A stretch of DNA of 64,000 bases from Hydrogenophaga sp. (GTDB lineage: Bacteria > Pseudomonadota > Gammaproteobacteria > Burkholderiales > Burkholderiaceae_C): assembly GCF_030651625.1 (NCBI RefSeq), contig NZ_JAUSCF010000023.1:62001-126000 (forward strand), given 5' to 3'. A model generated the notes under the pieces. That model saw only the letters and a program-made list of their open reading frames with translations. It was not told the DNA's origin and ran no database searches. Positions within the stretch are counted from its first letter, which is position 1. Every line of letters starts with the position of its first letter. Below are positions 24,718 to 49,128 of the stretch, piece by piece. The translations under genes and the position numbers were made by a program.

Positions 24718-24758
24718 TCTATTACCGACACGGGTGACCCGGCATCACCCAGATGGGT
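24718..24758 (-). promoter_or_regulatory. soeA promoter: shared sulfur-regulon box
   Basis: On the minus strand: palindrome ACCCATCTGGGT (24747-24758), ten bases, CACCCGT, five bases, then TAATAGAC with a candidate -10 hexamer at 24718-24723. The centre of the dyad lies 29.5 bases before the hexamer, about -41.5 from the expected start site. The same arrangement with identical spacing occurs before tusA and before the Cas6-like operon. There is no -35 box, so an activator on the dyad is likely. No good -10 lies at the mirror position towards the NarX-like gene. Confidence 0.65.
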
Positions 24759-24914
24759 AGCGTCGCCCCGTGCGGGGCGGGCTGACCGCCACCCGGCACA
24801 TCCATGACGCATTACGCAAAGGCGACTTGGGGTTTTCAGCATGTATCAGTACATGCTTGTGCACTACTATGGTTCGTTTGCACAGCCATGCCCAAGCCGG
24901 GGCCCCTACAGAAC

Positions 24915-26114
24915 ATGACCACGATTGCATGCAACCCAACGCAGGATGGCGCCACCTCCCTGGGTGTGGCGACGTCGGTGGATTGGGACGAAACCGGTCT
25001 GGAGTTGCTGCTGCAACGCTTCCTGGTGTCCATTGCCGAACTGGCGGGCGCCCAGGCCGGTGCGGTGCGCGTGCTGACCGATGACGGCCATCACATGCGG
25101 CTGGTGGCGCAGCAGGGCCTGCCACCCCATGTGCAGGAAGCGGAGCGGCTGGTGGACCGGGGCTGCGGCATGTGTGGCACCGCGGTCGATGGCGACGTGC
25201 TGGGCTGGGTGGACGATCTGCGGTCGTGTGAACGAAAAGGCGGTGGGCACTATTTCGGCGGACAGTGCCAGGGCGTGTTGGCCATATCGCTGACGCACGC
25301 CGGCGAGGTACTGGGGATCTACAACCTGTTCTTTGAATCCCGGTTCGATCTCCCGCCGGCGACTCAAACCATCCTGCGCCTGATCGGGCAGTTGCTGGGA
25401 CTGTCACTGCACAATGCCCGCATCGAGCGCGAGCGCCTGCGGGTCACCGTCTTGAAGGAGCGGCAGGAAATGGTCAACGAGGTGCATGACTCGATCGCGC
25501 AGACCCTGGCGTACGCGCGCATGCGGCTGCCCCTGCTGAAAGACGCCATGCTGGACCACGACGACCCGAAAGCCATCAAGTACTTTTCAGACGTCAAGCA
25601 GGCGGTGGGAGAGGTGCACGACAACCTGCGCGAGGTCATGACCTATTTCCGTACCCGCATGGACCCGCTGGGTCTGCTGCACGCGCTGCAGGGCATTGCC
25701 GACGGATTCTTCGGTCGGACCGGCATCGCGCTGGAGATCCACAACACAGTCCGGTGCCTGAACCTGTCCGATGCGCAGGAGGTCCAGGTGTTCTTCATCG
25801 TGCAGGAAGCGCTGGCCAACATCGCCAAGCACTCCATGGCCCGCCACGCGGCGGTGATCATCAACAAGACTCCGGCAGGACTTGAATTCGTCATCGAGGA
25901 TGATGGCCTGGGCATGGCAGCGCCGGGCGTCTCCACCATCGTGACCTCGGCCAAAGAGCTCGCGGCATCCACCCACTTCGGGCTGGAGATCATGCAGAGT
26001 CGGGCCCAGCGCCTCGGTGCGAGCCTGGAGGTGGGTGACAATGCGGGTGGCGGTACCCGCGTGCGCCTGTTGCTGCCCGCGTCCACCGCCACCACCGCAG
26101 AACACACACCATGA
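24915..26114 (+). CDS. NarX/NreB-type sensor kinase with cysteine-bearing GAF domain
   Basis: A 399-aa soluble kinase. A GAF domain (about residues 25-165) carries cysteines at 84, 87, 105 and 118 (GCGMCGTAV, RSCERKG, GGQCQGV). A HisKA_3 helix follows with the phospho-histidine in NEVHDSIAQTLAY (His about 191), then a HATPase_c domain (IEDDGLGM; GGGTRVRLLLP). There is no TM segment. The four cysteines could bind an Fe-S cluster or react with sulfur species (inference). An ATG at 24888 is an alternative start; neither has a strong ribosome site. Placed between soe and dsr, divergent from soeA, it probably senses redox or sulfur state. Confidence 0.85.
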   Translation: MTTIACNPTQDGATSLGVATSVDWDETGLELLLQRFLVSIAELAGAQAGAVRVLTDDGHHMRLVAQQGLPPHVQEAERLVDRGCGMCGTAVDGDVLGWVDDLRSCERKGGGHYFGGQCQGVLAISLTHAGEVLGIYNLFFESRFDLPPATQTILRLIGQLLGLSLHNARIERERLRVTVLKERQEMVNEVHDSIAQTLAYARMRLPLLKDAMLDHDDPKAIKYFSDVKQAVGEVHDNLREVMTYFRTRMDPLGLLHALQGIADGFFGRTGIALEIHNTVRCLNLSDAQEVQVFFIVQEALANIAKHSMARHAAVIINKTPAGLEFVIEDDGLGMAAPGVSTIVTSAKELAASTHFGLEIMQSRAQRLGASLEVGDNAGGGTRVRLLLPASTATTAEHTP

Positions 26115-26836
26115 CGACACCCGCCACGCAGGCCATGCAGACCCGGGTGATGCTGGTGGACGACCATGCCATGTGCCGCAGCGGGCTGTCCGAGTTGCTG
26201 CAGAACCGCAGCGGCATGGTCGTGGTCGCGGCCACCGGTGACCGTGCGCAGGTGATTCCCCTGCTGCGCGAGTTTCAGCCCGAGCTGATGGTGCTGGACC
26301 TGAGCCTGGGCCCGGTCGATGGCCTGAGTGTCCTGCGCGCGGTGCGCACCGAAGGCATCGAGGTGCCGGTGGTCGTGCTGACCATGAGCAACAGCGAAGA
26401 AGACCTGTCGGCGGCGCTGCGGGCTGGCGTGCGCGGCTACCTGCTCAAGGACATGGATCCCGACGACGTGATCGAATCCATCGGTCGTGCCGCGCGTGGT
26501 GAGCTGGTGGTGGCACCGACCATGGCCCTGAAGCTGGCCCAGATGTGGCAGAGCGGACAGAAGGGATCGGTCAAGCGCGACCTGGTGGACACGCTGACCG
26601 AGCGCGAACGGCAGGTGCTGGATCAGGTGGCGCGCGGCAAGAGCAACAAGGTGATCGCGCAGACACTGGATATCAGCCACAACACCGTCAAGCTGCATGT
26701 GCGCCACATCATGGCCAAGCTCGACCTGGGCTCGCGCGTGGAAGCGGCCGTGTTCGCGTTCGAGCACCGCACATCGACCGAACATTCAGGCAGGGGCGGT
26801 GACCCGGACAACTCCTCCGGACGCCGTTCGAACTGA
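26111..26836 (+). CDS. NarL/FixJ-family response regulator
   Basis: A 241-aa regulator: receiver domain (about 12-130; MLVDDHAMCR, phospho-Asp in LMVLDLSLGPVDG, YLLKDMDPDD) and a LuxR-type HTH (about 160-222; LTEREREV-like start, then KSNKVIAQTLDISHNTVKLH). The start overlaps the kinase stop (ATGA), so the two form a cognate pair. Its location beside soeA and facing the dsr operon makes it the best candidate to bind the TACCCA-type dyads found before the sulfur genes; the half-site resembles NarL heptamers (inference). Confidence 0.92.
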   Translation: MTTPATQAMQTRVMLVDDHAMCRSGLSELLQNRSGMVVVAATGDRAQVIPLLREFQPELMVLDLSLGPVDGLSVLRAVRTEGIEVPVVVLTMSNSEEDLSAALRAGVRGYLLKDMDPDDVIESIGRAARGELVVAPTMALKLAQMWQSGQKGSVKRDLVDTLTERERQVLDQVARGKSNKVIAQTLDISHNTVKLHVRHIMAKLDLGSRVEAAVFAFEHRTSTEHSGRGGDPDNSSGRRSN

Positions 26837-26885
26837 AGGCCGGAGCGCCACCCCTTTGCATGAAGCGATGCAGCCCAGGGCACCG

Positions 26886-26971
26886 CCGGGTCGCCCTTCG
26901 ACAAGCTCAGGACGGACGGCCAGTACCGCCCCCTTGAGTGGGTAGCGCGAAGCGCTGCGGCGGTGCTCACT
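26886..26971. repeat. Interspersed repeat and C-run/G-run palindrome between convergent genes
   Basis: The stretch contains CCCTTCGACAAGCTCAGGAC, a motif that recurs widely in proteobacterial genomes as an intergenic repeat. Next comes, on the minus strand directly after the cobA stop, CCGCAGCGCTTCGCGCTACC and a G-run, resembling the post-stop palindromic family. It may end transcription of narL-like and cobA genes. Confidence 0.5.
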
Positions 26972-27823
26972 TCAGTTGGCTACTGCCGCATTGAGCGCCG
27001 GCAACTGCTGAGGCACCTCGTGGTGGGCGGGCGAGAGGCTGCTGTCGGCAGCGGTCTGCGGGTCGAACCAGTGCAGCGTGCCGTGCAGCCTCACCACGTC
27101 GCCCACGATCAGCAGGCTGGGTGATGTGAAGCCGCTGCCTGCCACCTTGGCCGGGAGGTCGCCCAGTGTGCCCGTGAGCACCTGCTGCGTGGACAGCGTA
27201 CCGTGCTGAACGGCGGCAATCGGTCGCGTGGCCGGAGCGCCGTGCGCCATCAGCTGGCGGCAGATGTCGGGCAGCGCGTTCAGCCCCATGTAGATCACAA
27301 CGGTCTGGTGCGGGCGCACCAGCGCTTCCCAGTCCAGATTGGCACTGCCGTCCTTGAGATGACCGGTGACGAACAGACAGCCCTGTGCGTGGTCGCGGTG
27401 TGTGAGCGGGATGCCAGCGTAGCTGGCCACCCCGCAGGCGGCGGTCACGCCGGGGACCACCTCGAAGTCCACACCGTGTGCGGCGAGCTCCTGCATTTCT
27501 TCGCCGCCGCGCCCAAAGACGAAGGGATCGCCCCCCTTGAGCCGGACCACCCGCTTGCCTTCGCGCGCCAGTTGCACCAGCAACAGATTGATCTGTTCCT
27601 GGCGCATGGTGTGCTCGTTGCGCCGCTTGCCAGCAAAGATGCGTTGCGCATCGGGCGAAGCAAAGTCCAGCACGCCTGATGACACGAGGTTGTCGTAGAC
27701 GACGACGTCGGCCCGCTCCAGCAGCCGCACCGCCTTCAGCGTCAGCAGTTCCGGGTCGCCCGGCCCGGCGCCCACCAGGTAGACACAGCCGCGTGACCGG
27801 TCGCCAAAAGGTCGGATGTTCAT
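26972..27823 (-). CDS. cobA: Uroporphyrinogen-III C-methyltransferase (SUMT) at the end of the dsr operon
   Basis: A 283-aa SUMT. It carries the SAM-methyltransferase signatures [20 protein letters not shown] and [17 protein letters not shown], and the mid-domain [20 protein letters not shown]. It makes precorrin-2, the precursor of siroheme, which the DsrAB sulfite reductase needs. There is no CysG-type dehydrogenase/ferrochelatase domain, so those steps are encoded elsewhere. The ATG at 27823 overlaps the stop of dsrR by four bases, fixing the start and showing it belongs to the dsr operon. Confidence 0.93.
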
Positions 27824-28218
27824 AGGGTCATGCTCCCGGAGCCACAGCCGCCACCCGTGCCACAACCACCGCTGCCGCAACCGCCACCACCCCCTCCGGT
27901 GCTGCAGCCGCTGGTGGCGGGGACCTGGGCCAAGGGCTGCTGGCTTGCGAAAATGAAGTTGAACTGGCCCGGCTCCAGCTCGACGAAATCGAGCACGGTG
28001 TCTTCCAGCAGGTCGGCGTGCGCCGCGGCGATCACCACCGCCACGTCTTCCAGCATCAGGCGCGTGTCGTTGTCCGCAACATCGTCAAAGCCCATGCCGT
28101 AGCCGATGGAGCCGTCGGGCTCGCGCCGGGCGGCCACGCGCAGGGCCAGTTGTTCGGCGTCGCTCTCGCGAGCGGCTTGTCGTATCTGCTGTGCTGCTGT
28201 TGCTGTGAGTGTGAACAT
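27820..28218 (-). CDS. dsrR: DsrR, IscA/HesB-like protein with Cys/Gly-rich tail
   Basis: A 132-aa protein. Residues 1-100 form an A-type carrier (HesB/IscA) fold ([42 protein letters not shown]), without the three cysteines that bind Fe-S in IscA, as known for DsrR. The tail after residue 103 is almost all Gly, Ser and Cys, with Cys 105, 114, 119 and 125. DsrR of purple sulfur bacteria is needed for proper Dsr levels. It sits between a dsrC paralogue and cobA. The cysteine-rich tail is an added feature. Confidence 0.85.
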
Positions 28219-28233
28219 GCTGCGGGTCGCCTT

Positions 28234-28608
28234 TCAGTGTTCGCCTTTGGTGCGCAACAGGCCGGCCAGCCGGTTGCCCTGTTTCTGCGGACCCCCGCGG
28301 GGGAAGAGATCGTGCAGGTGGTGGTTGCTGCCGCGCTCGGGGCCCCAGACCGCCGTGAAGTGTTTGATCATGGCGCGCACCTGGGCCTGCACGCCGTGCT
28401 CGGCGTAGTACGCCCGCAGGTAGCGCACCAGCTGCCAGTGTTCGTCGGTCAGCGTCAACTCCTCCTGTGCGGCGAGCGCGCGCACGAAGTCTTCCGACCA
28501 GTCGCCGAGATGGCGCAAGTAACCTTCGGAGTCAGTTTCGACCGGGTGGCCGTTGACCGTCAGGATGCGGGTGAACGCATCGGCTGGATAGGTCAAGGTC
28601 GAGTTCAT
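28234..28608 (-). CDS. DsrC/TusE-family paralogue without cysteines (RspA-like)
   Basis: A 124-aa member of the DsrC fold: VNGHPVETDSEGYLRHLGDW, LTDEHWQLVRYLRAYYAEHG, LHDLFPRGG. The C-terminal arm reads GNRLAGLLRTKGEH, so both cysteines of true DsrC are missing; the protein contains no cysteine at all. It cannot carry the DsrC trisulfide and is more likely regulatory or structural, like the cysteine-free RspA group. The ATG at 28608 overlaps the dsrN stop (ATGA), placing it within the dsr operon. Confidence 0.88.
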   Translation of the reverse strand: MNSTLTYPADAFTRILTVNGHPVETDSEGYLRHLGDWSEDFVRALAAQEELTLTDEHWQLVRYLRAYYAEHGVQAQVRAMIKHFTAVWGPERGSNHHLHDLFPRGGPQKQGNRLAGLLRTKGEH

Positions 28609-30017
28609 GCCGCCAGCCTCTCTTGCGAGGCAACACGGGCGCTGAGCGAACGCCGGGCGCGCACGAAGTCGACAAAATGGCGTGCCCAGTCGGTGCCCGC
28701 CACGCTGCGCAGGTGGGTGTAGGTGGCCAGCAGGTTGTGCTGCACGATGCCGTCGTGCCGTCCGTCGATGCCGTGACCGCGCGTGACGCGCCAGGCAAAG
28801 CGCGTGTCTGCGGGCAGCCCGTCCAGGCTGGAATAGTGGAACTCGTGGCCGCGCAGGGACCGACCCTGCAGACCGCTCCAGGGCATGTGGTCGGTGGCGG
28901 CCAAGTGCACATACCCGCGCCCCACCGGTTTCTCGTGCAGCGTGGCATCGCCCGCCAAGGCGCCCACCATGGCGCAGCGTTCGCCGCGCCATTGCAGCGA
29001 ACGGGCCAGGTACATCAGGCCACCGCACTCGGCGTAGGTCGGCAGACCTTCCGCTATTGCAGCGGCGATCTTTGAGCGCAGCGAAGCGTTGGCCTGCAGC
29101 TCACGCATGAACAGCTCGGGGAAGCCGCCGCCGATGAAGAGACCGTCGATGGCCTCGGGCAGCGCCGGGTCGATCAGGGAGTCGAAGGGGAGCAGCTCGG
29201 CGCCGGCGTCGCGCAGGGTCTGCAGGTCATCTGGGTAGTAGAAACCGAAGGCCCGGTCCTGCGCCAGGGCGATTCGCACGGGCTTGACAAGGTTCACGGT
29301 GGGCGCCACGTGAATGGATGACAGGGCCAGCGCCGGCGCACTGGAAGCCAGCGCCCGCACGCGCTCCAGATCGACCTGGTCCGCGATGCGCTCACCGATC
29401 AGGTCGATCTGGTGTGCGGCGTCGGCGTGTTCGTTGCTCGGCATCAGGCCGAGGTGGCGTTCGGCCACCGCGAGGTCGGTGTCTTCGGCAATCGCGCCCA
29501 GCACCGGCACGTCGGTGTAGTGTTCGATCACGGCGCGCAGCTTGGCCTCGTGCCGGCTGCCGCCCAGCCGGTTCAGGATGACGCCGCCGATGCGGACCCG
29601 GCGGTCAAAGGCCTGGTAGCCCAGGATCAGCGGCGCGATGCCGCGCGTCATGCCGCGCGCGTCGATCACCAGCAGCACCGGCAGGTCCAGCAGTTGTGCG
29701 AGCGCTGCGTTGCTGTTGCTGCCGTCGAGCGCGAGACCGTCGTACAGGCCCTTGTTGCCCTCGACGATGCTGATGTCGGCGCCGACGGCCTGCCGGGCAA
29801 ACACGGCGCCGATCTGCTCCGGGGTCATGAGGTAAGGGTCGAGGTTGTGGCAGGCGCGGGCGCTGGCCCGTCCCAGCCACATCGGGTCGATGTAGTCAGG
29901 CCCCTTCTTGAAGGGCTGCACAGCGAGGCCGCGTGCGGCGAAGGCCGCGCACAGGCCCAGGCTGACCGTGGTCTTGCCCGAAGACTTGTGTGCCGCGGAG
30001 ATCAGCAGGCGGTTCAT
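28605..30017 (-). CDS. dsrN: DsrN, siroheme amidase (cobyrinate a,c-diamide synthase family)
   Basis: A 470-aa glutamine amidotransferase. The N-terminal ATP-binding part has a P-loop SAAHKSSGKTTVSLGLCAAF and VQPFKKGPDYIDPMWL. The C-terminal class I amidotransferase domain has the catalytic cysteine in PTYAECGGLMYLA and the partner histidine in RGHEFHYS. CobB-family enzymes amidate tetrapyrrole carboxylates; in dsr operons DsrN makes siroheme amide for DsrAB. It overlaps the cysteine-free dsrC paralogue downstream and follows dsrP by two bases. Confidence 0.93.
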   Translation of the reverse strand: MNRLLISAAHKSSGKTTVSLGLCAAFAARGLAVQPFKKGPDYIDPMWLGRASARACHNLDPYLMTPEQIGAVFARQAVGADISIVEGNKGLYDGLALDGSNSNAALAQLLDLPVLLVIDARGMTRGIAPLILGYQAFDRRVRIGGVILNRLGGSRHEAKLRAVIEHYTDVPVLGAIAEDTDLAVAERHLGLMPSNEHADAAHQIDLIGERIADQVDLERVRALASSAPALALSSIHVAPTVNLVKPVRIALAQDRAFGFYYPDDLQTLRDAGAELLPFDSLIDPALPEAIDGLFIGGGFPELFMRELQANASLRSKIAAAIAEGLPTYAECGGLMYLARSLQWRGERCAMVGALAGDATLHEKPVGRGYVHLAATDHMPWSGLQGRSLRGHEFHYSSLDGLPADTRFAWRVTRGHGIDGRHDGIVQHNLLATYTHLRSVAGTDWARHFVDFVRARRSLSARVASQERLAA

Positions 30018-30019
30018 GA

Positions 30020-31192
30020 TCAGACCTTGGCGGACACGAAGTCGTCCTGCGGCATGAAGTCGAAGGCGCGGACGCCCACGACCGTGAGCAGCAGGGCCGC
30101 CCCAAGACCTCCGACACCGAGCAGGAACTCTGGCAGCGAGGGAACATAGCTCGCAATCACGCCGTCGCCGAAGCTGCTGCTCACCTCGTGGCCGGGGAAG
30201 ATCTCCAGCGGGAAGGCCTGGCCGCCGATGATGAAGACATAGAGAAAGGCAAACGCGCCGCCCACGACTAGCACCGACGCGGCGAAGGTGGTTCGCTCGC
30301 TGGAGAGCCTCGGGTGAAACACCAGCAGCAGCGGCAGCACCGAGCCGATCAGCACATAGCCGACCCAGAACAGCAAGGGATAGATGCCGCCGTCGACGAG
30401 CAGGAAACGCTCGAACGCGACCTGCTTGGCGTAGTAGAGGTTTGTCAGGTGGTAGACCGCCACCAGGTACAGCGATGCAGCGATGAAGATCCCCAGCAGC
30501 CGGGCCATGCGGCGCCGGATCGCGCTGTCGAGAACGCGACCCTCCCACGCATACATCGTGGACTGCACGATAAGGAAGACCGCCAGGCCCCAGCCGAAGC
30601 TCAGCACGATGAACAGCGGCGCCAGCAGCGCCGACTGGTACGCCTGACGCGCGACCAGGAAGGCGAAGATCGAGCCGGTCCCGGTGGTCAGCACGAAGCG
30701 CCAGACGAGGGCCGCCAGGCCGGCGGTCTTCGAATACTTGTTCATGCGCCGCTCGAACATCGTCCACAGGTAGACCGCCACGATGGCCGTCATGCCCGAG
30801 TAGAGGAAGACGTTCCATGCGAAGACCGATTTGAAGTTGTAGTGTGTGGCCGCGACGATCACGCGGTCGGGCCGACCCAGGTCCAGCATCAGCACCATCA
30901 GTCCGCCCATCAGCAAGGCGATGCACAGAAGGCCCGAGAGCGGTGCGCGGTGCTTGTACGCCGCCTGGCCGAAGACCGAGCCGATCGAGGCGACGTTGAG
31001 CACGCCCGAGGCTGCGACGACCATGAAGATCGCGAACACGTGGGGCAGACCCCAGACGATCTGGTTGTTCATGCCGGTGACGATGTGGCCGTGCACCTCC
31101 ATGTAGTGCGACGCGCCCAGGCCGACGGCCGTGATCGCGCCAGCCAGGATGGCGAGCAGCCAGAAGTTGCGGGTGTCTTCGCGGGTTCTCAT
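30020..31192 (-). CDS. dsrP: DsrP, NrfD-like membrane subunit of DsrMKJOP
   Basis: A 390-aa protein with about ten TM helices (for example NFWLLAILAGAITAVGLGAS, VFAIFMVVAASGVLNVASIG). It has the NrfD-type motif LDLGRPDRVI followed by VFAWNVFLYSG. It is a quinone-interacting subunit of the complex that oxidises DsrC. It ends two bases before dsrN and starts 17 bases after dsrO. Confidence 0.93.
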   Translation of the reverse strand: MRTREDTRNFWLLAILAGAITAVGLGASHYMEVHGHIVTGMNNQIVWGLPHVFAIFMVVAASGVLNVASIGSVFGQAAYKHRAPLSGLLCIALLMGGLMVLMLDLGRPDRVIVAATHYNFKSVFAWNVFLYSGMTAIVAVYLWTMFERRMNKYSKTAGLAALVWRFVLTTGTGSIFAFLVARQAYQSALLAPLFIVLSFGWGLAVFLIVQSTMYAWEGRVLDSAIRRRMARLLGIFIAASLYLVAVYHLTNLYYAKQVAFERFLLVDGGIYPLLFWVGYVLIGSVLPLLLVFHPRLSSERTTFAASVLVVGGAFAFLYVFIIGGQAFPLEIFPGHEVSSSFGDGVIASYVPSLPEFLLGVGGLGAALLLTVVGVRAFDFMPQDDFVSAKV

Positions 31193-31209
31193 GGTCGAGC
31201 TTCCTGGGG

Positions 31210-31983
31210 CTAGATACCGTGGTAACGGACGCCAGGGTCCAGCTTCAGGTCGGCGCGCAACTGCGAGGTCTGGATCGCGCGGATGCGCTTCGAAATCTCG
31301 CTCTCCGGGTCGTTCAGGTTGCCGAAGACGATGGCGCCGTGGCCTGCGGCGCTGCAGGCCTGCACGCAGGCGGGCTGCTCGCCGCGGTCCACCTTGTGCA
31401 CGCACATCGTGCAACCCTCCACCGTGCCCATGCCGCGCGGCACGTCGGGGTTCTGGTTGGTCACGGGTTCATGGATGAACGAGCGCGCCTTGTAGGGGCA
31501 GGCCATCACACAGTAGCGGCACCCGATGCAGATGTGCTTGTCCACCAGCACGATGCCGTCGGCCCGCTTGAACGAGGCGCCGGTAGGGCACACATCCACG
31601 CAGGGTGGTTCGGCGCAGTGCTGGCACATCACGGGCAGAGACTGCGTCCTGCCGGTGCGCACCTCTTTGATCTCGATCTTGCGGATCCACTGCGCACCGG
31701 TCGTTCCGGGGTTCTCGGGCAGTCCGTTTTCGGTGCGGCAGGCGGTCACACAGTCGGTGCAGCCGCTGCTGCACTTTGTGCTGTCGATCAACATGCCCCA
31801 GCGCACCTGGGGGTCGGCACCAGCGGTGGCCGCACCGGCCGCAGGCGATGCCTGCGCAATTTCGATCAGTCGCACGCCGGGCGCCAGCAGGATGCCGGCC
31901 AGGCCCGCCGCTGCCATGCCCAGGAAGCCGCGGCGCCCGGGCTGGGCAGCCTTCTGTGACGAGGTGGGAGGCGCCGGGTTCAT
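31210..31983 (-). CDS. dsrO: DsrO, periplasmic ferredoxin subunit of DsrMKJOP
   Basis: A 257-aa protein with a Tat-type N-terminus (GRRGFLGMAAAGLAGILLAP), then cysteine groups CSSGCTDCVTAC, CQHCAEPPCVDVC, CIGCRYCVMAC and CTMCVHKV with CVQAC for several [4Fe-4S] clusters. It passes electrons on the periplasmic side between DsrJ and DsrP. The ATG at 31983 overlaps the dsrJ stop (ATGA). All features match the family. Confidence 0.93.
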   Translation of the reverse strand: MNPAPPTSSQKAAQPGRRGFLGMAAAGLAGILLAPGVRLIEIAQASPAAGAATAGADPQVRWGMLIDSTKCSSGCTDCVTACRTENGLPENPGTTGAQWIRKIEIKEVRTGRTQSLPVMCQHCAEPPCVDVCPTGASFKRADGIVLVDKHICIGCRYCVMACPYKARSFIHEPVTNQNPDVPRGMGTVEGCTMCVHKVDRGEQPACVQACSAAGHGAIVFGNLNDPESEISKRIRAIQTSQLRADLKLDPGVRYHGI

Positions 31984-32471
31984 GGTTGGGACGTTGCAGG
32001 GGCGCCCTCGGCACCGAGCGCGCGCACCAGCCGGGTGAGCTGGGCGGTGGTGCCGGTGGGGTGGGCCAACGGGTGGAAGGCCGATGTCGCCGCAGGTTTC
32101 GTGGCGTGGCATTCGAAACAGTCGATCTTCACTGCGGCAAAGCTGTGGCAGCTGACGCAGAAGTTGGTTTTGCTGGCCGCCACGCTCTGGGTGGTCTGGC
32201 TGGCGTGGCATTCAATGCAGGCCTTCAGGCTGTGCTTCGCACCGCGCACGCCACCGTGCACGGTTTCGTCGCGCTGGTGCTGGAGGAACTTCATGTGGTC
32301 ACGCCGCATGGTGGCCGGGTCTTCCACACACTGGCCACCGCGCGCGGGCTCGATCACGGGCTGCGGCACGCGAGGTGCCACACCCGGCGTATCGGCGGCC
32401 AGCACAGCGGCGCTGGCCAGCAGCAGCCACAGGGCCGCAGCGCGAGGGAGGTGTCGAAGCAGGTGGCCCAT
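31980..32471 (-). CDS. dsrJ: DsrJ, triheme cytochrome c of DsrMKJOP
   Basis: A 163-aa exported cytochrome. An N-terminal signal (RAAALWLLLASAAVLA-AD) is followed by three heme motifs CIECH, CVSCH and CFECH. Before them is the GGQCVEDPATMRRDHM segment, whose cysteine matches the unusual His/Cys heme ligand known for DsrJ. The ATG at 32471 lies five bases after the dsrL stop. It is the periplasmic redox end of the complex. Confidence 0.93.
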   Translation of the reverse strand: MGHLLRHLPRAAALWLLLASAAVLAADTPGVAPRVPQPVIEPARGGQCVEDPATMRRDHMKFLQHQRDETVHGGVRGAKHSLKACIECHASQTTQSVAASKTNFCVSCHSFAAVKIDCFECHATKPAATSAFHPLAHPTGTTAQLTRLVRALGAEGAPATSQP

Positions 32472-32476
32472 GGCCG

Positions 32477-38403: not shown

Positions 38404-38425
38404 GGGCTGGGTCCGCAGGCGTTGG

Positions 38426-41055: not shown

Positions 41056-41088
41056 CTGCCGGCCCCGGAATTGCGCCAATAGCAAATG

Positions 41089-41421: not shown

Positions 41422-42044
41422 GCGCCAGCCTTGACGAACAGCTGCTCGCCACCGTGATCGACATCGTCTTTCCGCTGGGTGGTCATAGCCTGCCGCGCGA
41501 TGCGGCGCCGGCCTTGCGGGCGGCGCTTCAGCGGGAAATGCCCTGGCTCGACCACGAGCCGCTGGCCGGCATACACCCCCTCAAGCTGGTACCCGGCACC
41601 GAAGCCGAGGCCTTGCTGTCGCAACGCACGCGACTGCTGCTGAGGCTGCCACGGGAGCGCTTCGCTGCCGCGACCGGGCTCGCCGGCCGCACCTTGCAAC
41701 TGGGTGACCAGGCGGTGACCCTGGGCCAGCCGCATGCGCGTGAACTGCTGCCGCACCGCACCCTGTATGCCTATGCGGTGGCCGCCGAGGTGGACGACGA
41801 GATCGCCTTCATGCAGACGATGGACGCCGATCTGCAGACGCTGGCCGTGCGCTCGCAGCTGATCTGCGGCAAGCGCCAGCAACACGCCTGGCCCGCCGGC
41901 GCGCTGACCACCTTCAGCCTGATGCTGCATGGGCTCTCCGCATCCGATTCGCTGCGCCTGCAGGAGCTCGGTCTCGGCCGGCACCGCCTGCTGGGCTGCG
42001 GCATCTTCGTGCCGCACAAGTCGGCCGCGGCGGTCGGCGAATAG
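41418..42044 (+). CDS. Cas6/Cmx6-like RAMP protein without CRISPR context
   Basis: A 208-aa protein that resembles the Cas6/Cmx6 (type I-MYXAN) family along its length: VIDIVFPLGGHSLPRDAAPA near the start, PWLDHEPLAGIHPLKLVPGT, RTRLLLRLPRERF, RELLPHRTLYAYAVA, and the end LRLQELGLGRHRLLGCGIFV followed by PHKS, which has the G-rich loop of Cas6 RAMPs. Cas6 enzymes bind and cleave RNA hairpins to make crRNA. No CRISPR repeats or other cas genes are in the window. It is coupled to the 75-aa gene and followed by a DsrC-like gene. RNA cleavage or RNA binding here is inference; His in GIHPL could be functional. Confidence 0.75.
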   Translation: MSASLDEQLLATVIDIVFPLGGHSLPRDAAPALRAALQREMPWLDHEPLAGIHPLKLVPGTEAEALLSQRTRLLLRLPRERFAAATGLAGRTLQLGDQAVTLGQPHARELLPHRTLYAYAVAAEVDDEIAFMQTMDADLQTLAVRSQLICGKRQQHAWPAGALTTFSLMLHGLSASDSLRLQELGLGRHRLLGCGIFVPHKSAAAVGE

Positions 42045-42082
42045 GGCGCTTCCCTCAACAACCCTCACACGGAGACACCAGC

Positions 42083-42412
42083 ATGGGCTATCAGATCAAT
42101 GGCGTTGAAATCGAAACCGATGCCGAAGGCTACCTGCTCGAACCCGACTACAGCGAGGAGGCGGTGCAGGTGATCGCGGCGGCCGACGGCATCGTCCTGA
42201 CGGCCGAACACTGGGAAGTCATCGGCTACATGCGGGACCAGTACCGCGAGCACGGCCACACACCCAACTTCCGCAACATGCTCAAGGGCTACAGCGAGAT
42301 CCGCCAGGGCGTGGACAGCAAGTACCTGTACGACCTGTTCCCGCTTGGGCCGGCCAAGCAGGCGGCGAAGGTGGCCGGCTTGCCGCAGCCGCTCGGCAAG
42401 GGCGGATATTGA
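42083..42412 (+). CDS. DsrC/TusE-family paralogue without cysteines (RspA-like), accessory operon
   Basis: A 109-aa protein clearly of the DsrC family (EIETDAEGYLLEPDYSEEAV, LTAEHWEVIGYMRDQYREHG, KYLYDLFPLGPAKQAAKVAG). The arm ends PQPLGKGGY, so the Cys98 position is Ala and the penultimate Cys is replaced; no cysteine remains. The core is closer to the true DsrC than the paralogue near dsrN. It lies between the Cas6-like gene and an unknown gene. Confidence 0.9.
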   Translation: MGYQINGVEIETDAEGYLLEPDYSEEAVQVIAAADGIVLTAEHWEVIGYMRDQYREHGHTPNFRNMLKGYSEIRQGVDSKYLYDLFPLGPAKQAAKVAGLPQPLGKGGY

Positions 42413-42421
42413 GACGTTCGC

Positions 42422-43030
42422 ATGGCCCTGCGCATCAAGAACCAGTGGTTTGACAACGGGCGACCGAAGTCCGCGAAGGAGACCGCGAGCGTCGTCGCCT
42501 TCATCGTCTGGCGCGTGACGCAGAACATGGTCAGGCAGATGCGTGAAGCCCGCTTCGACATCGACGTCGGCCCGCAGTATTTCGCCTTCATGCGCGAGAT
42601 CCTGGGCTTTCTTCTGCAGGTGGTGGACCGCATGGCGTTCGAACGCATGGGCATGGAACAGCGCGGCGAGTTCACGGCTGCGCTGGTGCGCCGCGTGGCC
42701 GAGATCCTGGAAGAGAGCGAACTCGAATGGCTCGGGCCGCCGCCCGCCGGCGCGGACAGCTGGCGCAACCAGTTCATCGATTTCTGCAACGAAATGGGCC
42801 AAGCCTATGCCGACTTCGGGCACGGCCCCGACGGGCCGGACTTCGGTTTCGTGCGCTACCTGGGCAGCCGCATCGAGGGCGTCATGCCGGCCAAGGACCG
42901 GCACTGGGTCAAAGACCAGCTGATGGCCATCGAGGTGCCGGAGGCGCTGGAGATGGTGCGCCGGGGTATGCACGGCGCCCTGTCCACCGAGCCGCGACCC
43001 AAACGCCGCGCCGCGATCAGCGGAGACTAG
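42422..43030 (+). CDS. 202-aa protein of unknown function in the dsr-linked operon
   Basis: A mainly helical protein (KETASVVAFIVWRVTQNMVR, MREILGFLLQVVDRMAFERM, LVRRVAEILEESELEWLGPP) with a tryptophan/aromatic-rich middle (WRNQFIDFCNEMGQAYADFG). No membrane segment or known catalytic motif. It follows the DsrC-like gene by nine bases and is probably co-translated with it. The combination with DsrC-like and Cas6-like genes suggests a shared role. Confidence 0.7.
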   Translation: MALRIKNQWFDNGRPKSAKETASVVAFIVWRVTQNMVRQMREARFDIDVGPQYFAFMREILGFLLQVVDRMAFERMGMEQRGEFTAALVRRVAEILEESELEWLGPPPAGADSWRNQFIDFCNEMGQAYADFGHGPDGPDFGFVRYLGSRIEGVMPAKDRHWVKDQLMAIEVPEALEMVRRGMHGALSTEPRPKRRAAISGD

Positions 43031-43036
43031 AAATGG

Positions 43037-43115
43037 TGCCCCCCTGCGTCGGCTCCGTTGCCTTCCCCCCAGAGGGGGACCACGCTGGTGGCCTGGCAAA
43101 GCCGGTTCCACGGCG
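43037..43115 (+). repeat. Post-stop palindromic repeat, copy C
   Basis: Starts about six bases after the stop of the 202-aa gene: CCCCCCTGCGTCGG, CTTCCCCCCAGAGGGGGAC, then TGGCCTGGCAAAGCCGGTTC and CACGGCG. Same strand and order as the other copies. It separates the first four genes of the accessory operon from the dioxygenase gene. Confidence 0.8.
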
Positions 43116-43195
43116 TGTGCTGTGGCAGCCACGCACTCCGATGGGACTCTCGCTTGCGTCGGCTTCGCGACGCCTGTGTATCCGGAGGCGATAAC

Positions 43196-44143
43196 ATGAA
43201 TCTGCTTGCGAAAAACAGCCCGTTTGACCTTGACCAGCCGCAGGCGTATGCGCAGTGGCGGGCGGCCAAGCTGGCCACCCAGCCCAGGTGCGTGGAAGAC
43301 CTGATTGTCGACGTGGCCGATCCGCGGTACCTGAGCGCAGGCGAGCGCGCTGCCCTGCTGCACAGCTGCGCGCGTGCCAACATGGTGATTTACCGCAGCC
43401 CGGTCGTCGAAGAGGACAAGGCGCTGCCCCGCTTGCTCGGGGCGCAGCTGGGCCTGCACCGGCTCGACGCCAACTGGCTGGCCGACGAAGACGGCATTTC
43501 GCCGATCGCGGTGTCATCCCGGGCGGCGGGCGCCCGAGCCGACTTCATTCCCTACACCGACAAGCCCATCCGCTGGCACACCGACGGCTACTACCATCCA
43601 CTCTCGCGTCGCATCGAAGGCATGGTCCTGCACTGCGTGCGAGAGGCGGGTGTGGGCGGGATGAGCGGGCTGGTGGACCACGACCGGGTCTACATCGCGC
43701 TGCGCGATGCCAACCCGGCATGGGTACGCGCGCTGATGGCACCCGACGCCATGACCATTCCCGAGCGGACTGACGCGCACGGCGTGGCCCGCTCCGCGCA
43801 GAGCGGACCGGTGTTCACTGTGTTACCAGCGTTGGGCGCCCTGCACATGCGCTACACCGCGCGCACCCGCAGCATCAACTGGAAGGACGACACCGACACG
43901 AAGGCGGCGGTCGCTTTTGTGGAGCAACTGCTGTCCAGCCAAGCACCCTGGATCTTTCGCCTGCGGCTGCAGCCTGGCATGGGCATCGTCGCCAACAACG
44001 TGCCGCACGAGCGCAGCGACTTCACCGATGACCCGCAGCGCCCGCGCCTGCTGTACCGGGCCCGTTTTCTCGACCGTGTCGGAGCGCCGCCAGTGCCCAA
44101 TCGCCATGCGTCCCAGGCGGCCCAGCCGGAGCTGTTGGCATGA
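43196..44143 (+). CDS. TauD/TfdA-family Fe(II)/2-oxoglutarate-type dioxygenase
   Basis: A 315-aa protein. The iron facial triad is visible as the H-x-D pair in IRWHTDGYYHPL and the distal His in IVANNVPHERSDF, with an Arg for 2-oxoglutarate in RPRLLYRARFLD. TauD relatives oxidise sulfonates and other substrates; a sulfur-containing substrate is plausible in this operon but not shown. The start at 43196 has GGAGG upstream. A palindromic repeat separates it from the 202-aa gene. Confidence 0.8.
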   Translation: MNLLAKNSPFDLDQPQAYAQWRAAKLATQPRCVEDLIVDVADPRYLSAGERAALLHSCARANMVIYRSPVVEEDKALPRLLGAQLGLHRLDANWLADEDGISPIAVSSRAAGARADFIPYTDKPIRWHTDGYYHPLSRRIEGMVLHCVREAGVGGMSGLVDHDRVYIALRDANPAWVRALMAPDAMTIPERTDAHGVARSAQSGPVFTVLPALGALHMRYTARTRSINWKDDTDTKAAVAFVEQLLSSQAPWIFRLRLQPGMGIVANNVPHERSDFTDDPQRPRLLYRARFLDRVGAPPVPNRHASQAAQPELLA

Positions 44144-44198
44144 GCGCAGCGCCGGGCCGCTCCCAAGCCAGCTCGCACCGCAGCCCGCAGGGCGAGGC

Positions 44199-45704
44199 AT
44201 GCCGATGAGCCACTGGCTGACCATCTGGCGTGCGGCCCAGCTCGTGGGCGTGCCGCGGGGTGTGCTGCAGCAGCAGGTGCGTTCGGGCACCCTGACGCTG
44301 ACCGAGGGTCTGGTGTCCACCGACGAGTTGCTGCGGCTCTATCCCGGCGTGCAGCTGGAAGAATCCGGTCTGCTGGAGCGGGTGGCCCACATCCGCGACG
44401 AGGCCTTCGGCAAGCGGCTGCGCGAGCGGCTGCTGCCCAGCCAGGAGGTGCTGGCGCAGCGGCTCTTCCACCAGACGCAGGAGCTGGCCGATGTGCGGCG
44501 CTGGTTGCAGCGGTACCACGCGCTGGTCATTGCGCTGCAGGCGCGCATCCATGCCCTGCAAGACAACGGCGCCACGCCGCTGGCGTTGTCTGAACTGCAG
44601 GATTTTGTCGACCAGGGTCTGGCCCAGGCGCTCGCGACCGAACAGGCCGACCTGCTCACGGTGATGGACGACATGCTCAAGGTCATGACAGCCCAGGTGA
44701 CGGTGCGCCCCAGCGGACACCAGTTCTGTGTAGAGGGTCACGACACGCTGTTGCAGGCCGGCCTGCGCGCCGGGCTCAAACTCAACTACGGCTGCGGCAA
44801 CGGTACCTGCGGCATGTGCAAGGTGCGCGTGATCTCAGGCCAGGTGGCACGCACCCAGCCCTGCGACTACCCGCTGTCCGAGGCGGAGCGTGCGCAGGGT
44901 TATACCCTGGCGTGTGCGCACACCGCAGCCAGCAGCGAGCTGACGCTGGAACTCCTGGAGGCCAGCGGCCCGCAGGACATCCCGCAGCAGCAGATCGTCG
45001 CCACGGTGCGGGCCGTCACGCAACTGGCGCCGGGCACGCGCCTGCTGCACCTGCAGACGCCGCGCAGCCACCGCCTGCGTTTCCTGGCGGGCCAGTCGGT
45101 CACGCTGGGCCTGAACCGACCTGACGGCAGCGACGTGCACGCCCTGTACCCCATCGCCAGCTGCCCGTGCGACGACCGCAACCTGCATTTTTTCATCGAG
45201 CGCCATGCACGGGACCCGTTTTCGCGCCAGCTGTTTTCAGACGGTATCCACACCGGCGACAGCGTCACGGTGTGGGGGCCGGTGGGGGATTTCGTGCTGG
45301 CCGAGAGCGCCCGAGCGCTGGTCTTCGCCGCCTGCGACACCGGTTTTGCGCCAGTCAAGAGCCTGGTCGAACATGCCCTGGCCCTCGACAACGCGCCCTC
45401 GCTCTCGCTCTTCTGGCTTGCCACGCGGCCGGACGGGCACTTTCTGGCCAACCAGTGCCGGGCCTGGTCGGAGGCACTGGACCCGTTCGAATACGAGCTG
45501 CTGGCCGAGCCCGACGTGACCTTCGGTGCGCTGCAACTGGCGCGCACCATGCGCTCCGACCTGTTCGAGATCGACTGCGACTTCTACCTCGCCGGACCAG
45601 AGGCCTTCGTGGAGGCGCTCGACACCGAACTGCGCGCTGCGGGCGTGCCGGCGACGCAGATCCACACCCTGATGCTGGCCGAGCCAGTGGGGGAGACCGC
45701 GTGA
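44199..45704 (+). CDS. [2Fe-2S] ferredoxin-flavin reductase with N-terminal HTH/coiled extension
   Basis: About 501 aa. Residues 1-165 begin like a MerR/excisionase-type winged helix (IWRAAQLVGVPRGVLQQQVR, STDELLRLYP) and continue as long helices (QTQELADVRRWLQRYHALVI). A plant-type ferredoxin follows with Cys199, Cys204, Cys207 and a fourth near 239 (YGCGNGTCGMCKVRV, LACAH). The rest is a ferredoxin-reductase-like FAD/NAD domain (FLAGQSVTLGL, LYPIASCPCDDR, DFYLAGPEAFVEAL). It resembles phenol/CDP-glucose reductase components. The ATG at 44205 is an alternative start. It may be a redox partner of the dioxygenase or DsrL-type reactions (inference). Confidence 0.82.
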   Translation: MPMSHWLTIWRAAQLVGVPRGVLQQQVRSGTLTLTEGLVSTDELLRLYPGVQLEESGLLERVAHIRDEAFGKRLRERLLPSQEVLAQRLFHQTQELADVRRWLQRYHALVIALQARIHALQDNGATPLALSELQDFVDQGLAQALATEQADLLTVMDDMLKVMTAQVTVRPSGHQFCVEGHDTLLQAGLRAGLKLNYGCGNGTCGMCKVRVISGQVARTQPCDYPLSEAERAQGYTLACAHTAASSELTLELLEASGPQDIPQQQIVATVRAVTQLAPGTRLLHLQTPRSHRLRFLAGQSVTLGLNRPDGSDVHALYPIASCPCDDRNLHFFIERHARDPFSRQLFSDGIHTGDSVTVWGPVGDFVLAESARALVFAACDTGFAPVKSLVEHALALDNAPSLSLFWLATRPDGHFLANQCRAWSEALDPFEYELLAEPDVTFGALQLARTMRSDLFEIDCDFYLAGPEAFVEALDTELRAAGVPATQIHTLMLAEPVGETA

Positions 45705-47070: not shown

Positions 47071-48174
47071 TCAGCGCTGCTGCCACTTCATCGTGGCCAC
47101 GGCACCGCCCACGATGCCCGTCAGCGCCAGGAAGGAGCCGATCGCCAGCGTGGAAACGCCCGACAGGCCCTGACCGATCGTGCAGCCCATCGCCGTGACC
47201 CCGCCAAAGCCCATCAGCACCGCGCCGATGAGCTGGGTGCGCAGATCCTCCATCGAGGCAAAGCCTTCCCAGCGAAACTGCCGCGTGCTGATGGCATAGA
47301 CGAAAGAGCCGAGCACCACGCCGATGGCCGATGCAATGCCGAAGGTCATGCGCAGCGACTTGTCGGTCCACAGCATCAGCATTTCCAGGTTGAAGGCGAC
47401 CGGCGCAACGAAGCTCAAGGATTCCAGCGTTCGCGTGTTGGTGGCGAAGTAGACCGTTTCAAGCGTCTCGGGATCTTCACCGTACCCGAGATGACCGGTG
47501 AGGTACCAAGCGGCCACGACCAGCAGGCCCAGCACCAGCGCGCCGAACACGTGCGATGGGTTGCTGCGGAAGCGCTTGTCCTTGAACACGAAGGCCAGCA
47601 GGGCCAGCCCCACCACGCTCATGGTGATCAGCAGTGCCGTCTTGTCCGGCAGACCGGTCAGCCTGGACAGCACCTGCGGCAGGCCCTGGTCACTGAATCC
47701 CCACTTCGACAGGTCCACAGAGACCGGGTCGAGGAAGCTGGCGCGCCACTGGCCAAACAGACCCTTGAGCGTCATGTAGGCCGAGATCGCCAGAACGGTC
47801 AGCACCACCACCGATCGCAGGCTGCCCCCGCCCACCCGCACCAGGTTCTTGTTGGCGCAGCCGGCGGCGATCGTCATACCCACGCCGAACAGGGCGCCGC
47901 CCAGCAGCAACGACAGCCAGGGCAGCACCGGTCGCTGGTAGACCGATTTGGACAGATCGATCAGACCGAAGTAATAGAGCAGGTTGGCTCCGATCACCGC
48001 CACGGCAATGGTCAGCAGCCACATGCGCATGCGGCCCCAGTGCTCCATGTTGACCACGTCCGAAATCGCGCCCATGGTGCAGAAATTGGTCTTGTTGGCC
48101 ACAGCGCCAAAGATGAAGGCCAGGACAAAACCGCCCCAGACGACCAGCATCGACGGGTTCATTCCTTCGTTCAT
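47071..48174 (-). CDS. YeeE/YedE-family sulfur-compound transporter
   Basis: A 367-aa permease with about nine TM helices. Conserved cysteines lie in helix-loop motifs NKTNFCTMGAISD, IAAGCANKNLVRVGGGS and TAMGCTIGQGLSG, as in YeeE thiosulfate uptake proteins, which relay the substrate through such cysteines. It is third in tusA-dsrE2-yeeE, so it probably imports thiosulfate or sulfane sulfur for the TusA route. Confidence 0.88.
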   Translation of the reverse strand: MNEGMNPSMLVVWGGFVLAFIFGAVANKTNFCTMGAISDVVNMEHWGRMRMWLLTIAVAVIGANLLYYFGLIDLSKSVYQRPVLPWLSLLLGGALFGVGMTIAAGCANKNLVRVGGGSLRSVVVLTVLAISAYMTLKGLFGQWRASFLDPVSVDLSKWGFSDQGLPQVLSRLTGLPDKTALLITMSVVGLALLAFVFKDKRFRSNPSHVFGALVLGLLVVAAWYLTGHLGYGEDPETLETVYFATNTRTLESLSFVAPVAFNLEMLMLWTDKSLRMTFGIASAIGVVLGSFVYAISTRQFRWEGFASMEDLRTQLIGAVLMGFGGVTAMGCTIGQGLSGVSTLAIGSFLALTGIVGGAVATMKWQQR

Positions 48175-48274
48175 GTGCAGGGCTCCATTTCAGGCAAAGA
48201 CCAACCGCTGCAGCAGCACGCGGCAGCATGGGACGACCACCTCGCCGTGTTTGCTGCCTTGCCGGAACAGGGTG

Positions 48275-48745
48275 TCAGATGAACAGGCAGACGTCCGACT
48301 CGCCGGCGAATTTCATGAAGGTCGCGGCGCCGCCGTATTCGACTTCCTTGATGAATTCGCTGGTCTCGAACTCGAACAGGTCCACCGTCATCTGGCAGGC
48401 GACGAACTTGACATCGAGCTCCAGGCACACGTCGCGCAGTTCTTGCAGCGAGGCCACGCCCTTGGACTTCATCTTCTTCTTCATCATCATCGTGGCCATC
48501 GCTTCCATGCCGGGCAGCATCTGCACCATCACAGGCATCGGCACAGGCATCGGCATGGCGGGGTTCGCCAGCGGGCTGATCTGGACGCCATCCAGGCTCT
48601 TGCGCAGCAGTTGCAGGCCATAGAAGGTGAAGAAGACCTGCACATCCCAGCCCAGTGAGGCCGCGGTGGACGCCAGAATGAACGGCGGGTAGGCCATATC
48701 CAGCGTGCCCTTGGTGGCGATCAACGCCATTTTTTTTGTTGCCAC
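48275..48745 (-). CDS. dsrE2: DsrE2-type peroxiredoxin-like sulfur carrier protein
   Basis: A 156-aa protein. It starts with GTG at 48745, with AGGAG eight to nine bases upstream; an ATG 15 bases later is weaker. The sequence ALIATKGTLDMAYPPFILAS, LGWDVQVFFTFYGLQLLRKS and the cysteine region VKFVACQMTVDLFEF match DsrE2, a membrane-associated sulfur carrier that pairs with TusA. The methionine/lysine-rich loop MATMMMKKKMKSKG is unusual in composition. Confidence 0.9.
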   Translation of the reverse strand: MATKKMALIATKGTLDMAYPPFILASTAASLGWDVQVFFTFYGLQLLRKSLDGVQISPLANPAMPMPVPMPVMVQMLPGMEAMATMMMKKKMKSKGVASLQELRDVCLELDVKFVACQMTVDLFEFETSEFIKEVEYGGAATFMKFAGESDVCLFI

Positions 48746-48783
48746 GTTGCGTGTCTCCTGCGGGTGAATGGGCGCGAAGGGGT

Positions 48784-49011
48784 TCAGGCCTTCTTGAGGT
48801 AGAACACGAACTTGCTGTTCTCGTTGCCCTGTTCGAGCAGTGCGTTGCCCGTCTGCTCGGCAAACGCGGCCATGTCGCACACCGAGCCGGGGTCGGTCGC
48901 CACGACGCGCAGGATCTGTCCGCTGGTCATGTCCGCCAGCGCTTTCTTGGTCTTGACGATCGGCATCGGGCAGGCCAGGCCCGAGGCGTCAAATTCCTTG
49001 TTGAATTCCAT
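48784..49011 (-). CDS. tusA: TusA sulfur carrier
   Basis: A 75-aa TusA protein with the sulfur-binding cysteine in DASGLACPMPIVKTKKAL (Cys14). It passes sulfane sulfur to DsrEFH/DsrC. The ATG at 49011 has CAGGAGACACAG upstream. It is first of tusA-dsrE2-yeeE; the conserved promoter box lies about 75-115 bp upstream. Confidence 0.95.
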   Translation of the reverse strand: MEFNKEFDASGLACPMPIVKTKKALADMTSGQILRVVATDPGSVCDMAAFAEQTGNALLEQGNENSKFVFYLKKA

Positions 49012-49087
49012 CTGTGTCTCCTGAAGTGTTCTGGGCAGGCGTCCATCGCCGCGTGGAAACCGATTCTTCAAGAGGTCGCCCGAACCG

Positions 49088-49128
49088 TCTATCACCGCGA
49101 CGGGTGATGACGCGTAGTCCATCTGGGT
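49088..49128 (-). promoter_or_regulatory. tusA promoter: shared sulfur-regulon box
   Basis: On the minus strand: ACCCAGATGGAC (49117-49128), ten bases, CACCCGT, five bases, TGATAGAC with a candidate -10 hexamer at 49088-49093. The dyad centre to hexamer distance is 29.5 bases, as at soeA and at the Cas6-like operon. The region is shared with the divergent FadL-type gene. Confidence 0.65.

Follow-up and report, generated by a model that had tools for sequence, protein, structure and literature searches.

Reverse-Dsr oxidation is a main sulfur-oxidation route, and the DNA analyzed here, 64,000 nucleotides of Hydrogenophaga sp. (contig NZ_JAUSCF010000023.1, positions 62,001 to 126,000; hereafter the window), carries a dsr cluster together with three operons that are each preceded by the same promoter element, which we call the box. 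We regard the box as probably the operator-promoter of a dedicated sulfur-oxidation regulon, activated by a NarL-like response regulator encoded at 26111-26836 beside its partner kinase. The genes concerned, with positions in the window, are as follows.

19978..24607, minus strand: soe operon (soeABC by context), a target operon
21674-24607, minus strand: molybdopterin oxidoreductase (soeA)
20917-21645, minus strand: Fe-S subunit
19978-20898, minus strand: DmsC-type anchor (third soe gene)
24804..26114, plus strand: sensor histidine kinase with GAF_2, HisKA_3 and HATPase, start codon uncertain
26111..26836, plus strand: NarL-like response regulator with receiver and LuxR/GerE helix-turn-helix (PF00072, PF00196), candidate binder of the box
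26972..40920, minus strand: dsr cluster, a target cluster, with dsrA, dsrB, dsrE, dsrF, dsrH, dsrC, dsrM, dsrK, dsrL, dsrO, dsrP, dsrN, cobA
41194..45704, plus strand: Cas6-like operon, a target operon
41194-41421, plus strand: DUF6967
41382-42044, plus strand: Cas6-like gene
42083-42412, plus strand: DsrC-like gene
42422-43030, plus strand: gene without an assigned family
from 43058, plus strand: TauD-like gene
43917-45704, plus strand: Fer2/FAD reductase
47071..49011, minus strand: tusA operon, a target operon
48784-49011, minus strand: tusA
48275-48709, minus strand: dsrE2
47071-48174, minus strand: YeeE/sulfur transport gene

The dsrA, dsrB, dsrK, dsrO, DsrC and DsrH families exceed their NCBIfam cut-offs, dsrM and dsrP score below theirs, and dsrL, dsrN and dsrE/F were named from family match plus position; the cluster (26972..40920) is assumed to be one transcript. 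The large soe subunit matches several molybdopterin families, all below cut-off, and we infer the soeABC names from context.

A sequence-only reading of this DNA had described three copies of the box, and all three are present, at 24717-24758 (minus), 41015-41056 (plus) and 49087-49128 (minus), each one base longer at one end than originally given. A loose pattern, ACCCANNTGGRN11CACCCGTN7ATAGAC with up to three mismatches, finds exactly these three in the window; 100 dinucleotide shuffles yielded no match at all. The significance resides in the combination of both halves, each half being at chance level: the dyad half (ACCCANNTGGGT, one mismatch) occurs four times in the window versus 2.07 expected, and the CACCCGTN7ATAGAC half (three mismatches) nine times versus 10.86 expected. 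Across the whole 4.27 Mb genome (39 contigs, the window belonging to contig C22), a stricter pattern returned these three boxes and no others, while a relaxed pattern added a single three-mismatch match on contig C28. Matrix scores were 54-60 for the three boxes, and the next best in the window and the rest of C22, from a frame overlapping box 2, was -9.3; beyond C22 the genome was covered by the pattern search rather than by the matrix. The 19 kb fetched around soxB of this genome contained no box, with a best matrix score in the sox stretch of -26.9. Since neither these surroundings nor the remainder of C22 holds a box, sox is not shown to be a regulon member and was dropped as a candidate.

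The promoter anatomy was revised by alignment of 110 unique sites. The trinucleotide AAT, which is not among the bases fixed by the search pattern, closes a hexamer at a spacer of 17 bp (67 sites) or 18 bp (43 sites) after TAGACG and does so in no site at 16 or 19 bp; no other offset tested between 5 and 34 has it in more than five sites. Because AAT stands at this fixed distance in all unique sites, TAGACG, which is TTGACA-like, is the -35, and the -10 takes the general form NNNAAT (TTTAAT, TCTAAT, AAGAAT, GCTAAT, CCCAAT and similar). The spacing is that of sigma70-type promoters (17 +/- 1 bp), and the hexamers themselves are weak matches. ATAGAC had previously been read as the -10, with the dyad centered at -41.5 and CACCCGT as a separate block. 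The comparative alignment contradicts the first two assignments, placing the predicted center of this dyad (dyad 1) near -66, and CACCCGT instead forms the left half of another dyad (dyad 2), which is imperfect and lies 23 bp from dyad 1. Reassignment of the -35 and -10 moves the predicted starts about 30 bp downstream. The activator-type layout proposed in the same reading is nevertheless supported, with both dyads upstream of a weak -35. The elements of the four promoters in the window, one of which is described further below, are these.

24745..24759, minus strand: soe promoter dyad 1 (TACCCATCTGGGTGA), predicted center about -66
24722..24736, minus strand: soe promoter dyad 2 (CACCCGTGTCGGTAA), imperfect, predicted center about -43
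24716..24721, minus strand: soe promoter -35 (TAGACG), 17-bp spacer to the -10
24693..24698, minus strand: soe promoter -10 (TTTAAT), predicted start near 24686
41014..41028, plus strand: dyad 1 (TACCCATATGGGTTA) common to the Cas6-like-operon promoter and the divergent dsrA promoter
41037..41051, plus strand: Cas6-like-operon promoter dyad 2 (CACCCGTCCCGGCTA)
41052..41057, plus strand: Cas6-like-operon promoter -35 (TAGACT)
41075..41080, plus strand: Cas6-like-operon promoter -10 (GCCAAT), predicted start near 41087
40990..41004, minus strand: dsrA-facing equivalent of dyad 2 (AGCCAACGAGGGGGA)
40984..40989, minus strand: dsrA promoter -35-like element (TAGCAA), at the same distance from the shared dyad
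40960..40965, minus strand: dsrA promoter -10-like element (TACGAT), 18-bp spacer, predicted start near 40953
49115..49129, minus strand: tusA promoter dyad 1 (TACCCAGATGGACTA)
49092..49106, minus strand: tusA promoter dyad 2 (CACCCGTCGCGGTGA)
49086..49091, minus strand: tusA promoter -35 (TAGACG)
49063..49068, minus strand: tusA promoter -10 (AAGAAT), predicted start near 49056

The consensus of dyad 1 is TACCC-N5-GGYTA and that of dyad 2 YACCC-N5-GGTNA; the two align, 23 bp apart, and at one locus (L059) the second element is a complete copy of the dyad 1 consensus, TACCCATATGGGCTA. With a start assumed 7 bases past the -10, the dyad centers are predicted near -66 and -43. Columns outside the search pattern are also conserved (T-1 86%, A0 92%, G10 95%, T12 95%, C31 96% and G42 90%). 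The pattern-fixed columns (CCCA, TGG, A, ACCC, T, GG and ATAGAC) are 100% by construction and were not counted as evidence; since the dyad core columns were mostly set by the pattern, their perfect symmetry carries no evidential weight. A sigma54 promoter was considered and rejected, as TGGCA-N6-8-TGC occurs in 1 of the 110 sites and GG-N10-GC after the -35 in 42, versus a shuffle mean of 38.85. Just past the predicted start of the Cas6-like operon, positions 41089-41148 hold an inverted repeat of 27 bp, 96% complementary, around a 6-base loop. It was rejected as a conserved part of the box, since among 11 leaders a similar repeat was seen by eye in our own sequence, L078 and L112 only.

The fourth promoter had gone unnoticed. 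The dyad upstream of the Cas6-like operon had been said to face dsrA as well, and this is supported: it is shared with a predicted dsrA-facing promoter that has its own -35-like and -10-like elements. In an alignment of 22 unique sequences from 24 loci, our own included, the dsrA-facing strand reads dyad 1, then CAACGAGG in all 22, then TAG or TGG where a -35 would stand, at the same distance from dyad 1 as in the other promoters. TANNAT follows at a spacer of 17 bp (10 sequences) or 18 bp (12); all other offsets between 3 and 39 lack it. Given the common dyad 1 and the fixed spacing, divergent transcription is probable, the dsr cluster and the Cas6-like operon being driven outward from a single shared dyad. 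The matrix gives this promoter a score of -17.7 and thus cannot detect promoters of the dsrA-facing variant. Twenty further stretches, fetched from the 26 dsrA-positive genomes of the family and not part of the 22 aligned sequences, show this divergent arrangement of genes too; a regular expression written for the dsrA-facing promoter matched none of these 20 loci, being too strict.

Comparison across genomes ties the box to sulfur oxidation. In a family sample of 299 genomes the box occurs at up to three mismatches in 28, compared with 3 for a reversed-pattern control. On the question of unrelated promoters, all 19 genomes with a match at up to two mismatches carry dsrA; of the nine with a match at three mismatches only, G100, G157, G171, G273 and G281 carry dsrA and G139, G231, G268 and G280 do not. 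An exact search with a looser pattern, using one genome per species, yielded stretches from other genomes, at least 117 in all, the majority labeled as betaproteobacteria. The listed matches include Rhodoferax, Hydrogenophaga, Polaromonas, Piscinibacter, Rubrivivax, Curvibacter, Azohydromonas, Aquabacterium, Leptothrix and Hylemonella, two Nitrosomonadales bins, and bins labeled Burkholderiales, beta- or gammaproteobacteria, Proteobacteria or Pseudomonadota. Among the nearest listed loci by protein identity are those of the metagenome-assembled genome HGW-Betaproteobacteria-16 (soeA 97%, L037; dsrE2 99%, L138).

Among the 118 instances listed from these loci, the first recognized gene downstream is tusA in 50, soeA in 36 and DUF6967 (u41086) in 23, so that tusA-dsrE2, soeA or the DUF6967/Cas6-like operon that stands opposite dsrA lies downstream of 109 of the 118. 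The kinase is divergent to soeA in 35 of the 36 listed soeA instances (in the other, L050, the available DNA leaves 215 bp), and the available DNA includes the regulator as well in 29; dsrA is divergent to DUF6967 in 19 of 23, and the remaining four have less than 240 bp. Other listed targets are a TauE-like match (L094) and a Rieske match (L113), one each, and seven instances were left unassigned by the script. Of these seven, two lie ahead of sat (L127, and L051, where a gene for the APS reductase beta subunit is also downstream), and L038, L040, L044, L060 and L098 have the box at the edge of the available sequence, with the kinase-regulator pair on the other side of the box in L060 and L098. 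In L051 and L127 the box, beside the kinase (and in L051 also the regulator), precedes sat where other genomes have soeABC; sat, with the APS reductase beta subunit in L051, is an alternative sulfite-oxidation route replacing soeABC. The repeated target operons, the dsrA-facing dyad and the co-occurrence with dsrA described next together support the shared sulfur regulon that had been proposed from three sites.

The NarL-like regulator is inherited with dsrA. In the family sample it is found (E<=1e-50) in 25 of 299 genomes and dsrA in 26, and all 25 regulator genomes have dsrA; 24 dsrA-positive genomes have the box, and 23 of these the regulator. In an order sample of 399 genomes, 87 have dsrA, 84 the regulator and 82 both, with the two on one contig in 49 and within 40 kb in 43, and the regulator occurs in 2 of the 312 genomes lacking dsrA (G358, at 42% identity, and G639, 66% complete). 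The genomes with dsrA and no regulator are G491, G495, G533, G548 and G562. Among these, G533 and G562 have dsrA matches of 598 bits versus about 480-536 for other full-length matches, and a regulator match 44% identical about 13 kb away; they perhaps carry dsr of the reductive type, its regulator having diverged. Outside the family we picked 20 genomes that have a good regulator match, usually a single genome for each family; kinase and regulator are adjacent in all 20 and DUF6967 stands opposite dsrA in 18. The recognition helix, TVKLHVRHI with few variants, resembles that of NarL (TVKVHVKHM). Overall, this co-inheritance and the NarL-like helix support the earlier nomination of the regulator at 26111 as the candidate binder.

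Neither protein reaches the thresholds of its E. coli counterpart: the regulator scores 206.1 bits against the NarL equivalog NF007935 (curated cut-off 250 bits), and the kinase 139.4 of 553 bits for NarQ and 102.3 of 578 for NarX, matching in its C-terminal half only. The kinase has GAF, HisKA_3 and HATPase as its only Pfam domains, and comparison with the PDB gave weak HisKA/HATPase matches and nothing further. Residues 121-155, within the GAF domain, hold a CGxCG motif and two more cysteines, all nearly invariant. In a 38-row alignment, Cys 121, 124 and 142 are present in 36 of 36 ungapped rows and Cys 155 in 33 of 36, and outside the family Cys 121, 124, 142 and 155 occur in 17, 19, 19 and 17 of 20 rows, respectively. 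A thiol, metal or Fe-S site is a possible role for these cysteines, and their near invariance makes it plausible that the kinase senses a sulfur or redox signal. Long open frames hinted at a kinase-regulator fusion, which was rejected because the spacing of tblastn matches in L156, L166 and L170, calculated by hand, indicates different frames.

Several comparisons place this arrangement near known systems. The NarL heptamer is TACYYMT, which the TACCC half-site fits, and E. coli NarX is a nitrate-sensing membrane kinase, unlike the GAF kinase here. NreB/NreC likewise combines a HisKA_3 kinase with a NarL-family regulator, and the known targets of Hyphomicrobium SoxR and sHdrR lie outside dsr. 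E. coli NarX/NarL, acting at ogt and yeaR, has a receiver-GerE regulator with a closely similar recognition helix; it differs from the pair described here in kinase type (GAF here), in targets (sulfur genes here) and in that our proteins fall below the NarL and NarQ/NarX cut-offs. In derivatives of the ogt promoter, NarL functions with its site 65, 55 or 32 bp ahead of the -10 (PMC9314961). The box dyads lie 54-55 and 31-32 bp upstream of theirs, counted by hand, close to the working positions at 55 and 32 bp (PMC9314961). Native E. coli ogt requires two NarL sites, likewise in tandem and with one abutting the -35 (PMC7419079). Relative to the NarL 7-2-7 site, the box has a shorter gap between half-sites, and its sites are 23 bp apart versus 33 bp at ogt (-44.5/-77.5). 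Two-component control of sulfur oxidation is also exerted by TspS/TspR and RsrS/RsrR of Acidithiobacillus caldus, which control sox-II and tetH/tqo, unlike dsr and soe here (PMC6335251), and by the sulfide-sensing NreB/NreC of Bacillus licheniformis, which activates sulfur-oxidation genes in a Gram-positive organism but differs in having a PAS rather than a GAF sensor and in controlling sqr and pdo (PMC9918477). The ArsR-type SoxR and sHdrR of Hyphomicrobium denitrificans also control sulfur oxidation, in response to sulfane sulfur, and differ in being one-component repressors (PMC10451225, PMC12423496). DsrR of Allochromatium vinosum is likewise implicated in regulation of Dsr sulfur oxidation but is an IscA-like protein rather than a DNA-binding two-component regulator (PMC11406059).

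Taken together, these observations lead us to favor a mechanism in which the phosphorylated NarL-like regulator would bind two tandem dyads, built on TACCC half-sites with centers 23 bp apart near -66 and -43, and recruit sigma70-type RNA polymerase to a weak promoter (-35 TAGACG, 17/18 bp, -10 NNNAAT). One regulator would thereby jointly switch on soeABC (or sat-apr), the core dsr genes, the DUF6967/Cas6-like/DsrC-like operon and tusA-dsrE2-yeeE; because the dsrA-facing promoter has the same layout and a dyad in common with the Cas6-like promoter, a single regulator would suffice for all four units. The partner GAF kinase, with its four conserved cysteines, probably reads an internal sulfur or redox signal. 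The sites, their geometry, their targets and their inheritance together with the regulator are seen directly in the sequences; binding and activation by the regulator, and the signal of the kinase, are what we infer from them. A broader version can be offered tentatively and seems to us quite possible: the same system may be a general master switch of reverse-Dsr oxidation across betaproteobacteria, in which a four-Cys GAF kinase would read intracellular sulfane sulfur or its Fe-S/redox state and the NarL-like regulator would fire dsr, soe or sat-apr, TusA-DsrE2 and the Cas6-fold operon as one unit, including the divergent dsrA/Cas6-like double promoter around one shared dyad.

Several findings weigh against activation by this regulator through the box. 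At one locus (L094, Rubrivivax albus) the box, from 3017, precedes a 479-amino-acid frame without a Pfam match. One genome (G101) has dsrA and box with no regulator found, and two (G107 and G249) have regulator and dsrA with no box at three mismatches. The genomes are related, so that co-occurrence p-values overstate independence, and the inheritance of the regulator follows that of dsr too closely for co-occurrence to distinguish box binding from pathway membership. Outside the family, the family-type box (three mismatches) is found in only 7 of 80 dsrA-positive genomes while the regulator (E<=1e-50) persists in 75 of them; these counts omit the low-completeness dsrA-positive genomes G418, G456, G465, G557 and G578, which were included in the order-sample co-occurrence. 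The rarity would fit an operator that has drifted with its half-sites retained: a relaxed dyad, TACCC-N4/5-GG(N)TA, defined after viewing the sequences, occurs in 9 of 18 usable dsrA intergenics outside the family (from 20 stretches; 200 shuffles gave a mean of 0.125 and a maximum of 3) and in 13 of 19 within it (from 20 stretches; shuffle maximum 2). The symmetry of the sites is imperfect as well. In dyad 1 the center of the CCCA-NN-TGGG core lies half a base from that of the TA ends, which pair in 86-90% of sites. Dyad 2 has little symmetry beyond ACC/GGT, the outer base of which pairs in 70% of sites, whereas the ends of the dyad do so in 29-36%. The 7-2-7 format of NarL sites fits neither dyad, as TACCC and GGNTA are separated by 5 bp and the right half is imperfect; the NarL consensus would put these halves 6 bp apart. 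Furthermore, a single NarL site at -44.5 of ogt gave expression that was not nitrate-coupled, and most other positions made poor promoters (PMC7419079).

Other explanations fare less well. These may be genuine sulfur-regulon promoters bound by another protein, for example a TspR-like enhancer-binding protein; the TspR target of A. caldus, TGTCCCAAATGGGACA, has the CCCA-NN-TGGG core too (PMC6335251), and the link between regulator and box here rests on association. We nonetheless think this unlikely, given that TspR is sigma54-dependent according to a reference title in the same paper (PMC6335251) whereas sigma54 elements are at chance here and sigma70-type spacing holds at every site, and that the adjoining regulator is NarL-like with a near-NarL recognition helix. 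Repression by the same regulator, relieved by a sulfur signal, would have a parallel in SoxR and sHdrR, which are repressors in Hyphomicrobium (PMC10451225, PMC12423496). It appears quite unlikely for the box, where both dyads lie upstream of a poor -35, clear of the -10 and predicted start, and at distances from which NarL activates.

The layout first proposed, with ATAGAC as the -10, dyad 1 at the class II position of -41.5 and CACCCGT as a separate element, draws on a loose likeness of ATAGAC to TATAAT and on a constant 29.5-bp distance. We consider it very improbable in view of the AAT that follows TAGACG after 17 or 18 bp in all 110 unique sites, the alignment of CACCCGT with the left half of dyad 1, and the complete dyad consensus at the second position in L059. 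That the box is a chance or mobile repeat without regulatory role could be argued from its three copies only in this genome by pattern, but the probability is close to negligible: shuffles produced none, the reversed pattern reached 3 genomes against 28, and the targeting of the same three operons in many genera is a specificity that contradicts it. We retain activation by the NarL-like regulator as the probable account of the box.

Some neighboring genes deserve mention. The Cas6-like gene, which lies between DUF6967 and the DsrC-like gene opposite dsrA, scores 139 bits against TIGR02807 (cut-off 98.85). A Cas6-like match is present at the dsr locus in 20 of 20 dsr-positive stretches of the family and in 15 of the 20 chosen genomes outside it; recurring in both, the gene seems tied to dsr. 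We know of no role for the Cas6-like protein and DUF6967. Beyond soeC, positions 17728-19900 (minus) of the window encode a CMD-Rieske protein and a TauE/SafE exporter. Matches to both recur near box genes in several loci, and in L113 the box lies directly upstream of the Rieske match. In L094, a gene for a Usp-family protein follows the 479-amino-acid frame.

NarL-type two-component activation is a familiar kind of system. Among the open-access papers listed by our searches, none describes this box or a two-component system that controls reverse dsr, absence there being no proof, and likewise none describes the regulon, the geometry of its operator, the shared divergent dsrA promoter or the near-perfect coupling to dsrA. 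In the open-access papers searched, transcriptional control of reverse-Dsr oxidation is hardly described beyond DsrR (PMC11406059). For this pathway, a regulator, an operator, a promoter geometry and a target list are here predicted together. The box would serve as a sequence marker for genes acting with Dsr, including DUF6967 and the Cas6-like protein. By marking the operons that oxidize stored sulfur to sulfate, it offers a testable answer to how the pathway is switched on.

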